The notes beneath the pieces were generated by a model that was not told the DNA's origin, searched no databases, and worked only from the letters and a program-made list of their open reading frames with translations. Shown in pieces: positions 54,689 to 62,301 of a DNA stretch of 64,000 nt (positions within the stretch are counted from its first letter, which is position 1; every line of letters starts with the position of its first letter). The translations under genes and the position numbers were made by a program. Source of the DNA: Polytrichum commune (lineage: Eukaryota; Streptophyta; Polytrichopsida; Polytrichales; Polytrichaceae); the NCBI GenBank assembly GCA_950295325.1, contig OX485808.1:5646501-5710500 (forward strand), read 5' to 3'.

Positions 54689-54878
54689 GGAACTTCCTCT
54701 CGGCCGAGAGGAAGTTCCATCAATCCTCCCATCCTTCAATCAGGGCTCAAGGGATTGAGGGAGGTGAGGGAACTTCCTCTCGGCCGAGAGGAAGTTCCAT
54801 CAATCCTCCCATCCCTCAATCAAGGATCAAGGGCTTGGGAGAGGTGAAGGAACTTCCTCTCGGCCGAGAGGAAGTTTC
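54689..54878. repeat. Palindrome array 1: 80-bp unit, three copies
   Basis: Perfect palindromes of 30, 30 and 26 bp (arms GGAACTTCCTCTCGG / CCGAGAGGAAGTTCC; the third is AACTTCCTCTCGG / CCGAGAGGAAGTT) start at 54689, 54769 and 54851. Each is followed by a diverged copy of CATCAATCCTCCCATCC and TCAAGGG. The period is exactly 80 bp. The array lies between the segment ending at 54988 and the next coding segment. Confidence 0.9.
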
Positions 54879-54987
54879 CTCACATCTCCCAATTCCTTGA
54901 GCCTTGATTGAGGGATGGGAAAGTGGAGTCTGCATGTGGGAGTGCGAAAATAAAAATTGGAGTGGGAGTGGGTGTATGAAAACTTAC

Positions 54988-55615
54988 TCTCCATGCCTCC
55001 TTCATTTTGGGGTTTATAGTTGTCCCCACAGCGTTGATCCGTTGTTTTGAGGGCCTCCCTAGTTTCACCCACACCCTACGATAGTACATAATCTGTGTTG
55101 TCCAAGTAGGAGTGAACTTGTTGAAAGAATTAGAGTTGTTTAGAGTATAGGAAAGACGAACTATCATGCTTGGATCATTGGTCCAAACAATCGTACAAGG
55201 CCAAATCTTCAATTTATCCTTCAGTGATTGATTTGTATCCTTGTGCCCTATAATCTGCCTCGATGCAGCCACGCTGTGTTGACCGTTGATGATCATAAAA
55301 TTGCCGTCCTTGATGTCGTCCCAAGTCATTCCTTCTCTCCATGTCTCACCCTTATTGAGTTTCGGCATGAGACATAGATTGTGATGGAGTCACGCTGGTG
55401 GGGTCTGTATAAGGTAGTTCTTCATGAGAGCTACTCCGGCGTCATCCAATGGGCGAGTAACTTGATACGACTTTGCGCTCAATATTTTCTTAATATGGAC
55501 ATGGAAAACTTTCTCGATACCGAAAGGATATAGTTGTCCAAATAATTGGACGAATTTCTTGCGGTCCGCTGCAGCTTCCTCAAGACTTGGTTCCTCGCCA
55601 TGCGCGATGACTCTG
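54988..55615 (-). pseudogene. DGQHR/ParB-like domain fragment with in-frame TGA
   Basis: Read in one frame: EEAAADRKKFVQLFGQLYPF, VHIKKILSAKSYQVTRPLDD, then IQTPPA, TGA (55392-55390), LHHNLCLMPKLNKGETWREG, then DIKDGNFMIINGQHSVAASR, CTIVWTNDPSMIVRLSYTLN and RINAVGTTINPKMKEAWR before a donor (GTAAGT at 54987). The INGQHSVAASR motif resembles the DGQHR and ParB-like nuclease-fold family, where this loop binds nucleotide or nucleic acid; that link is my inference from the motif alone. The sequence on both sides of the TGA is of equal quality, so the stop looks recent. It may be the 5' part of the multi-domain locus next to it. Confidence 0.55.
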
Positions 55616-55625
55616 CCCCTCTCTG

Positions 55626-55893
55626 GTGTGAGGGTGGGGAGGGGCTCTTCAAATGAGAGCGCAGGGGAGAACTTCCTCTCGCCCGAGAGGAAGTTTTCCC
55701 TCTCCTCAAGTCTTTGTGTGAGGGTGGGGAGGGGCTCTTCAAATGAGAGCGCAGGGGAAAACTTCCTCGCTCGAGAGGAAGTTTTCCCTCTCCTCAAGTC
55801 TTTGTGTGAGGGTGGGGAGGGGCTCTTCAAATATGAGCGCAGGGGAGAACTTCCTCTCGCCCGAGAGGAAGTTTTCCCTCCCATCCTGGTGCT
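55626..55893. repeat. Palindrome array 2: about 90-bp unit, three copies
   Basis: Units start at 55626, 55716 and 55804, each with GTGTGAGGGTGGGGAGGGG, CTCTTCAAAT, GAGCGCAGGGGA and the palindrome arms AACTTCCTCTCG / CGAGAGGAAGTT around a 2-nt centre. Copy 2 has lost 2 bp in the palindrome. The array is translatable on the minus strand (repeats of ERENFLSGERKFSPALSFEE), but this is probably not real coding sequence. Confidence 0.9.
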
Positions 55894-55934
55894 TGTGAGG
55901 GAGGGTTTGTGTGAGGGATAAGTTCTCCACACTA

Positions 55935-57545
55935 TTTTGAGTTATGTAACATTGAGTTGAATCAAGCATTAAATACCGACTGTGAATTCATTCAATTGAT
56001 ATCAATGCACATGCCAAAACATAACTATTGTGTCAATGACACTATCAAACTGCAATGTCTCAATTTCTACTTTGAAACTGTAATACACCCATCATGGCGC
56101 CCACACAGAGCCTCTTCAGTACCAGTCTGGTTCTCCCTTGCTACCAATGTATCCAGAATCTCATGGCAATGTGACGATGAATCTATGATGGAAATTGATG
56201 ACTCCCAATTGAGTTTCTTGCAATAAGATGTGATGTTTCAATGAGACTGCATGATTATCACACAAACAATTAACGCAGAAGAAAGACAAACTTTGGAACT
56301 AGTTCGGCAACAACAAATACAATATAATCAAGAGAGATTGAAAAAAACATTTGCTTAGTTTAGTTTTTAGGGTTTAGGGTTTACATTGATGAATGCCACT
56401 ACAGCTACAATTGCTACATTGATATTCAGCAAGATCCACCATTATTTGAGGAAGTTGAGGAACAGAACATTGAAGATACTATGTTTGCTTATTCCAATAT
56501 GAGGGAGTAAGATGCATTCAAAGGTAACTAAATAACCACCTTATATCCCAGTTCTCACTGTATCTGCAGAAAGTGCACTCTCACTATTGCAAGCAGACTG
56601 CAATCAGCATCGCCTCCCAAAGTTTACAGAAACCACCTACCACCCAAGAAAATCTTTTACTAAGGAAAGAGGGTTAGTGTGAAAATAGTCTTTGGCACAA
56701 AAGAACAGTTGTGGTCAACACATCTCATTGCAGCTTACTTGAGGTCAACTGATTTAAAAGATCAAATTAGCACTCATACATCTTTCAATCCTAGACATTC
56801 AACCCTGACATTTCAACAACCAAGCACATTCAACCCAACACATTCAACCCTGAAATTTCTGCACCCCAACCAACAACTCAACACATTCAACCCTGATAGA
56901 TAACTCAAACACATATTCTAAGTGGAGAGAGCACAACTCTGACTTGAGAGATGCACACCAGTTATTTTCAGATGTTCATAGAGATCGCACAAGACCAACA
57001 GATTCAAAGCACATACAAACATACTCATAATAATTCAAAGAATGTTCATCAAATCGCTCCATACCAACATTCAAACATGAAGTTATAAGCAAAATCTGGT
57101 GTAGTGGTGGAATACTCACCAGAAGTTGTTGTGAGGCGCGCCGAAGATTTCCGAAGCCGCTGGATATGCACCTCCGCGCCCAAACCTGGAGTAGTGGGAG
57201 ATTGCGTGCAAATGCAATGAGAGGCGAGGAAATGTGAGGCAATGCGAGGAAATGTGAGGAAATGCGAGGAAAAGAGAGGGAGAGAGTTGGAGTGAGGGAG
57301 GGAGAGAGGAGGGGAGGGAGGAGGTGCGGCCACAAATGAAAAGGCGCAATGAATCCGAAGGGACTCCACCCGGGGGCCTCGGATAGTGGCCCGCATCGAC
57401 GGCGTACATTGAGCCGTCATTATAAACGGCCAAGATCATCTCACCTACCCATGATGACCCTCTATACCGACTAATAGCCCGTGTAGGGGAGCTCCAATCG
57501 ACATGTGTCGATAGAGTACGTTTGGACCGGGGGGGGGGCACCTAG
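55935..57545. other. Intergenic DNA with short satellites and telomere-like motif
   Basis: Contains TTTAGGGTTTAGGGTTTAC at about 56367-56385, a short tandem region at about 56790-56900 with CATTCAACCC units, and an AGGAAATGCG-type repeat at about 57225-57280. A minus-strand open frame (57541-57116) carries SPTRAISRYRGSSWVGEMIL and then YNDGSMYAVDAGHY. It starts with GTG, has no known domain, and its right part overlaps the repeats. I cannot support a gene. Confidence 0.4.
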
Positions 57546-61600: not shown

Positions 61601-61644
61601 CGGCCCAGCTGACATAGCCTTGTTTTCCTCTCATGAACACTGCC

Positions 61645-61785
61645 ACCAAGTTTCCTCTCGGCCGAGAGGAAAACTGGCACCCTTCACCTTCGCACTGAGT
61701 TTCCTCTCGGCCGAGAGGAAAACTCACACCCTTCACCCTGGCACCAAGTTTCCTCTCGGCCGAGAGGAAACCCGACTCCCTGTAC
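61645..61785. repeat. Palindrome array 3: 49-bp unit, three copies
   Basis: Perfect 22-bp palindromes (TTTCCTCTCGG / CCGAGAGGAAA) at 61651-61672, 61700-61721 and 61749-61770, spaced exactly 49 bp, separated by copies of CTGGCACCCTTCACC-like sequence. Ends about 75 bp before the rRNA-like segment. Confidence 0.9.
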
Positions 61786-61858
61786 CCTGGCACCGATCTC
61801 TTTGTTGCTGGTACAGATCTCTTTGTTTAATCTCAATCCAACTCAACCGGTTCATGAA

Positions 61859-62225
61859 GTGTAAATCGTTCGTCAGATTTGGGTATAGGGGCGAAAGACT
61901 AATCGAACCATCTAGTAGCTGGTTCCCTCGGAAGTTTCCCTCAGGATAGCTGGAGGTAAAGCGAATGATTAGAGGCATCGGGGGTGTAATACCCTCGACC
62001 TATTCTGAAACTTTAAATATGTAAGCCGCCAGGGTTGCTTGGTGGAACCCTGTCACAGAATGAGAGCTCCAATTGGGCCATTTTTGGTTATCAGAACTGC
62101 CGACGCGAGATGAACCGAAAGCCGAGTTACGGTGCCAAACTGCGCTCCAACCTAAATCCAAATGAGAACTTTGAAGACTGAAGTGGAGAATGGTTCCATG
62201 TGAACAACAATTGGACATGGTCCGC
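61859..62225 (+). rRNA. Degenerate 26S (LSU) rRNA fragment with internal deletions
   Basis: Collinear with the middle of eukaryotic large-subunit rRNA: AAATCGTTCGTCAGATTTGG, GGGGCGAAAGACTAATCGAA, TAGTAGCTGGTTCCCTC, GAAGTTTCCCTCAGGATAGC, AATGATTAGAGGCATCGGGG, CCTCGACCTATTCTGAAACT, GAGCTCCAATTGGGCCATTT, GTTACGGTGCC. A gap of about 20 nt follows GATAGCTGGAG (near 61952). A second, much larger gap of some 200 nt lies near 62155, after CCAACCTAAAT, where AATGAGAACTTTGAAGACTG and GGTTCCATGTGAACAAC follow directly. Many point changes. It is a pseudogene fragment, not a working rRNA gene. Confidence 0.85.
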
Positions 62226-62279
62226 TAGTCCACTAGTCCCAGTCACGCGCCCGCGGGGTGTAAAGACCATGGAGTGAAG

Positions 62280-62301
62280 TTTCCTCTCGGCCGAGAGGAA
62301 A
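62280..62301. repeat. Solitary 22-bp palindrome, fourth locus
   Basis: Perfect palindrome with arms TTTCCTCTCGG / CCGAGAGGAAA, identical to the core of array 3 but standing alone about 55 bp after the rRNA-like fragment. Confidence 0.9.

Follow-up and report, generated by a model that had tools for sequence, protein, structure and literature searches.

The described systems that most resemble the element reported here, as far as the analogy goes, are the short palindromic repeats of Volvox carteri and the GC clusters of yeast mitochondrial DNA. In the part of the Volvox report considered here, the repeats are described as hairpin-forming, located in both intergenic and intronic sequence and spread in organelle DNA, and with additional copies in the nucleus, which the authors regard as inert (PMC2670323). 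The yeast GC clusters, specifically GC42, are associated with a putative target-site duplication and with population evidence of movement, according to the portion of that source used here (PMC4478555). A further group of loci changes through template switching, which is outlined in the relevant excerpts as homogenising the arms and inverting the spacers of yeast inverted repeats (PMC8604942) and as creating and mending hairpin stems in RNA genes (PMC8794818). Here we describe a short palindrome that occurs at four places in a 64,000-nucleotide stretch of DNA from the moss Polytrichum commune (assembly GCA_950295325.1, contig OX485808.1, positions 5,646,501 to 5,710,500, forward strand), hereafter called the window, whose own numbering is used throughout. 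With moderate confidence, and on the basis of sequence comparison, we propose that it is an apparently noncoding repeat that acts as a site at which DNA polymerase switches template.

Ten copies of the palindrome were found, all within 7.6 kb (54.69-62.30 kb), and the other 54 kb of the window contain none. Seven are the exact 20-mer TTCCTCTCGGCCGAGAGGAA, two have the imperfect centre GCCC instead of GGCC (55673 and 55851), and one copy in array 2 (55763-55780) has lost 2 bp and carries one further change. They are arranged as three tandem arrays and a solo copy (Table 1); a recount agreed in full with the original prediction, which had listed ten copies with their coordinates and with periods of 80, about 90 and exactly 49 bp. 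In array 1, the perfect palindrome extends to 30 bp in copies 1 and 2 and to 26 bp in copy 3. A chance origin of the repeated palindrome is ruled out by two counts against shuffled sequence. The 10-base arm TTCCTCTCGG, allowing at most one mismatch, matches 23 times in 64 kb (mean of 2.10 and maximum of 7 in 100 shuffles), with 19 matches at the four places and the remaining four at 16797, 23262, 33366 and 46076. The window also contains nine exact even palindromes of 20 bp, seven of which are TTCCTCTCGGCCGAGAGGAA and two of which are AT-rich sequences near 17.5 kb, versus 1 in total over 20 Markov shuffles.

Table 1. Positions of the palindromes, the rRNA fragment and the dispersed repeats in the window.
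Feature	Positions	Strand	Description
Array 1	54680..54891	none	three copies, exact 20-mer at 54694, 54774, 54854; period 80/80
Inverted repeat, 57+57 nt (114 bp)	54807..54920	none	centred on array 1 copy 3; arms 89% complementary
Array 2	55626..55880	none	three copies, spacing 90/88; two GCCC centres, one 2-bp deletion
Array 3	61640..61794	none	three copies at 61652, 61701, 61750; period 49/49
Decayed LSU (25S/28S) rRNA, first block	61855..62123	+	80.7% identity with the LSU piece of L002 in an alignment of 290 columns
LSU rRNA, second block	62156..62220	+	starts at model position 1469; end taken by eye from the alignment
Solo palindrome TTTCCTCTCGGCCGAGAGGAAA	62280..62301	none	starts some 60 bp past the second LSU block
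Dispersed repeat family, copies	10177-10464, 13597-13888, 14592-14837, 26915-27290, 28093-28399, 31948-32154, 43397-43768		

The palindrome shares with the Volvox repeats the form of a short (10-100 nt) hairpin-capable repeat. It differs in having a loopless GGCC or GCCC centre, where the Volvox repeats are described as having a TAAA/ATTT-type loop, and in forming tandem arrays in apparently nuclear DNA, where those repeats spread in organelles (PMC2670323, in the part considered). Because of the different loop type, we do not file it as a member of the Volvox type. With the GC clusters it has in common that short GC-rich palindromes stand at different sites, although the clusters are mitochondrial and the present repeat is apparently nuclear, with no target-site duplication seen by eye at 62280 (PMC4478555, likewise in part). 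A check for such a duplication around the solo copy had been proposed in the original prediction, and its outcome leaves mobility without support at that site. The string CTCTCGGCCGAGAG was not found in the literature searched, and among the matches listed for moss and lycophyte, Volvox, mobile nuclear and rRNA-linked palindromes, for expansion segments and for minisatellites derived from miniature inverted-repeat transposable elements (MITEs), no title or beginning of an abstract described this repeat.

We then considered the signs of copying at a hairpin. The 47 bases to the right of copy 3 in array 1 resemble the spacers of this array in inverted orientation: compared with the reverse complements, they are identical at 41 of 47 positions for the spacer between copies 2 and 3 and at 40 of 47 for the one between copies 1 and 2. 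A direct comparison with the former spacer gave 33 of 49. The array 1 spacer has therefore been turned round about the palindrome. Pairing between the flanks also continues beyond the 20-mer: it exceeded all 400 random flank pairs in seven of the ten copies and gave a P value of 0.0025 for the solo copy. In the predicted single-stranded DNA folds, unit 1 of array 3 pairs TGCCA with TGGCA across a bulge and unit 2 pairs TGAG with CTCA, so that each unit has its own partner side. The core was also better kept than its surroundings in array 3 (variable columns: core 0/20, flank 12/29; Fisher P = 0.0006) and, in array 1, on its left side (core 0/20, flank 8/24; P = 0.005).

An inverted spacer together with differently extended arms is the known footprint of template switching, and template switching is in our view the best explanation of these observations. 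In the proposed mechanism, a nascent strand ending in the palindrome would fold back on itself or re-anneal to another copy. Such switching could yield tandem duplicates (periods of 80, 88-90 and 49) as well as an inverted spacer, as if copying had turned round at the palindrome; arms would grow outward differently at different places, and copying of one arm from the other would keep the two complementary. The replication mechanism itself would suffice for the pattern, with no protein or RNA function required, and the shared 20-mer suggests that the four places descend from one palindrome. The duplication linked to hairpins that the original prediction had envisaged finds support in the inverted spacer of array 1 and in the extension of the arms. 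The apparent likeness to the quasi-palindromes of yeast and of RNA genes lies in arm homogenisation, stem creation and spacer inversion; those loci, as presented in the parts of the two reports drawn on, change in place relative to an ancestor, whereas here one core is found at four places (PMC8604942, PMC8794818).

Several results weigh against template switching at the hairpin. Taken alone, it leaves the spread of one 20-mer over 6 kb unexplained. The extra flank pairing was not significant at A3.1 (the first copy of array 3; P = 0.31) or A3.3 (P = 0.08), the value for A3.2 is inflated in that its 60-base flanks reach the neighbouring copies, and the copies of any one array are not independent of each other. 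The third unit of array 3 shows no extension, and 15 of 200 shuffles folded as well as its DNA (z = -1.4). Between the two full units of array 1, core and flank did not differ significantly (0/20 versus 7/60 variable columns; P = 0.18), and array 2 fits template switching poorly: its core was no better kept than its flank (3/20 versus 16/70; P = 0.55, with gaps making up 13 of the 16 variable flank columns, the third unit having been cut off at the edge of the array), and its changed centre and 2-bp deletion remain unrepaired. The state of the array 2 core therefore speaks against strict selection and against efficient arm repair alike. Finally, half-wise shuffles did not show the spacers to be second palindromes, except weakly in array 1 (P = 0.04 for the spacer joining copies 2 and 3, and 0.19 for the one joining copies 1 and 2); in arrays 2 and 3 the P values of the four spacers were 0.46-0.88.

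The sequence around the palindrome divides the copies, on present alignments, into two local subtypes, one comprising arrays 1 and 2 and the other array 3 and the solo copy. A longer core, AACTTCC...GGAAGTT, is common to arrays 1 and 2, and outside the 20-mer flank A1.3L aligns with both A2.1R and A2.2R for some 24 bases (score 22, reached by 0/200 shuffles in each case; this is the best of 144 comparisons with uncorrected P, and A2.1R and A2.2R are identical to each other). The stretch that the solo copy has in common with array 3 measures 25 bases for two of the copies there and 24 for the other. Between the subtypes no convincing flank match was found, the top pair being A1.1L and A3.3R (score 8, P = 0.075, among the best 25 of 144 comparisons). 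The pattern is therefore a mixture of local growth of longer units and a core common to unrelated surroundings. The original prediction that only the palindrome is shared holds between the subtypes, where the core alone aligns convincingly, and fails within them, where a longer core, a flank or 24-25 bases are shared as well. Its view that the palindrome and not the unit appears to spread or be selected receives partial support: between the two pairs of loci the palindrome is what they have in common, and within each pair the growth is partly that of an ordinary local repeat.

A rather unlikely alternative is that the palindrome is a mobile short element of the kind of the Volvox repeats or the yeast GC clusters, present in many copies across the genome, that inserts in noncoding DNA and gives rise to arrays only later. 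An identical 20-mer in differing surroundings at separate places would be expected of such an element, and so would the solo copy at 62280; the confinement of all copies to one small part of the window, their division into two local subtypes and the lack of a visible target-site duplication argue in the opposite direction. MITEs and fold-back elements are inverted repeats of plant DNA in which terminal inverted repeats enclose a body common to the copies. The present palindrome is not of this kind, since self-comparison showed only the core and short flanks to be in common and found no terminal repeats enclosing a shared body. The exact 20-mer had no match in viral or prokaryote contig collections, neither of which covers the host genome. 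A looser pattern matched one viral contig (L001), but its palindrome differs and was judged by eye to be unrelated; relatives in these viral and prokaryote collections were rejected.

The unexpected part of the locus is the link between the palindrome and an rRNA pseudogene. At the Rfam gathering threshold the whole window gave a single match, to eukaryotic large-subunit (LSU) rRNA (61692-62509; 175.3 bits, gathering score 50). It resolves into two blocks (Table 1), the second of which scored 32.9 bits when searched alone (below the gathering score; E = 2e-6). The first block was compared with an LSU piece in L002, a bacterial record of Mangrovicoccus ximenensis (1.16-Mb contig) in which about 430 bases of LSU rRNA (L002:3099-3530) lie amid bacterial-looking sequence; this piece, which we take to be plant-like, is probably a contamination or misassembly. 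The two differ at 32 of 268 aligned bases. Of these differences, 17 are C>T or G>A and 1 is T>C, a bias that fits a methylated pseudogene, with L002 as a relative and not an ancestor. With these differences, and with about 290 LSU model positions absent between the blocks, the fragment does not have the complete conserved core of a functional LSU rRNA gene. In its ACAACAATTGGACATGG stretch it looks closer to the LSU of other eukaryotes than to that of green plants. Palindromes of a single subtype stand on both sides of the fragment: array 3 ends upstream of it, and the solo copy starts a short distance downstream.

The next LSU helix is probably part of array 3. Unit 1 of the array (A3.1) resembles the LSU helix CCACCAGAGTTTCCTCTGGC in antisense: CCACCA-AGTTTCCTCTCGGC aligns with LSU CCACCAGAGTTTCCTCT-GGC with 19 matches and two one-base gaps. 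This match was equalled by 21 of 20,000 shuffled LSU pieces, and none of 3,000 stretches drawn at random from the window's first 54 kb reached it (largest score 22, versus 28). In L002 the matching helix is found 16 to 36 bases ahead of where the BLAST block starts, and by this alignment it is the helix expected just upstream of the LSU fragment. In a test with 500 shuffles that covered seven of the ten copies (leaving out A1.2, A2.2 and A2.3), A3.1 and A3.3 matched the LSU piece better than all shuffles, and A3.2 and the solo copy gave P values of 0.036 and 0.054; A1.1 (P = 0.48), A1.3 (P = 0.18) and A2.1 (P = 0.27) showed no match. The same helix can be aligned, in sense orientation and with gaps, to the right arms of array 3, and a global alignment sets it against the right arm of the third copy. 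In the solo copy, the right arm CCGAGAGGAAATC is identical at 11 of 13 positions to the LSU consensus CCGAAAGGGAATC near the collinear place; the solo region as a whole did not match the LSU tail significantly (P = 0.29 or 0.11 in shuffles, depending on the scoring scheme).

An rRNA helix may have seeded array 3. We consider it unlikely that the whole palindrome family was born from this helix and spread from a broken rRNA gene in the nucleus. Under such a scheme, template switching would have duplicated the helix GCCAGAGGAAACTCTGGTGG in inverted orientation within a decayed nuclear LSU copy, and the resulting perfect palindrome would have been amplified in tandem as array 3 before seeding the solo copy and arrays 1 and 2 nearby. 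Between the last array 3 copy and the first LSU block lie at least about 50 bases more than in L002, which weighs against an LSU origin. A derivation of all palindromes from LSU rRNA is also opposed by the missing match in arrays 1 and 2 (P = 0.18-0.48) and by the palindrome core, which when compared alone with LSU was not significant (P = 0.15, 5,000 shuffles).

Two further explanations compete with template switching at the hairpin. In the first, which we regard as improbable, the repeats are an ordinary minisatellite whose longer ancestral unit was duplicated and then diverged, leaving the palindrome as its best-kept part. The longer core and partial flank match of arrays 1 and 2 and the bases common to array 3 and the solo copy agree with such a history within each pair of loci, but between the pairs no convincing alignment exists outside the core. 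The second, that the palindrome may be a selected site bound by a dimeric protein (e.g., the transposase of a neighbouring decayed element) or a small-RNA hairpin, is very doubtful: the RNA folds are far stronger than those of shuffles (z = -15.4, -6.2 and -8.0 for arrays 1, 2 and 3) and the core is better kept than the flanks in array 3 and on the left of array 1, but strong folding is expected of any inverted repeat, the array 2 cores are altered or broken, and every Rfam microRNA (miRNA) match in 54001-64000 falls under its gathering score. No Rfam family of miRNA precursors reached its gathering score in the window search; besides LSU rRNA, the Rfam search of 54001-64000 gave only sub-threshold miRNA and small-RNA matches, and no tRNA was found.

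The window as a whole has the look of nuclear DNA from a land plant or one of its relatives. A Pfam scan of ten open frames gave four matches, to two leucine-rich repeat proteins (one with LRRNT_2, PF08263), a cyclophilin and a NIF-type phosphatase, and six frames had no match at E 0.01. Frames of the latter kind lie on the minus strand around arrays 1 and 2 and on the plus strand after the solo copy, and presumably represent remnants of multi-copy or transposon genes. Those near arrays 1 and 2 are interrupted (53180-55941, minus strand), and one contains the motif FMIINGQHSVAASRQ, which we take to be ParB-like. Stop-to-stop frames of 150 amino acids or more, without known coding content, enclose arrays 2 and 3, and the one around array 2 has no Pfam match. 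We do not claim that the arrays are intronic: array 2 stands in an open frame and no well-scoring in-phase acceptor was seen by eye. The minus strand has a fair donor at 54987, which with a score of 2.6 ranks eighth among the 14 listed.

Other repeats are found in the window. A second palindrome, ACACTAAAT-5-ATTTAGTGT, has a variable centre, with exact arms at 924, 22382, 30290 and 60385 and a variant at 1536. It sits at the ends of MITE-like repeats (921-1146, 1536-1913, 22297-22408, 29961-30312, 34533-34675 and 60385-60407), the first of which is a 71% inverted repeat of itself. A dispersed repeat family with units of about 200-380 bases has at least seven copies in both orientations (Table 1), and a direct duplication of about 1.25 kb joins 34714-35952 and 40054-41297 at 72% identity. 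Short TTTAGGG-like telomeric stretches and, just past the solo palindrome, a TAGGTG tandem repeat were also observed (56358-56381, 60861-60884 and 62318-62356).

The mobile or self-maintaining short palindromes in the literature compared here are organellar. If the palindrome of P. commune is a nuclear family beside an rRNA pseudogene, it would show the birth, upkeep and spread of a palindrome, and its few loci, with their duplications, inversion and growing arms, would allow a direct test of template switching versus selection.

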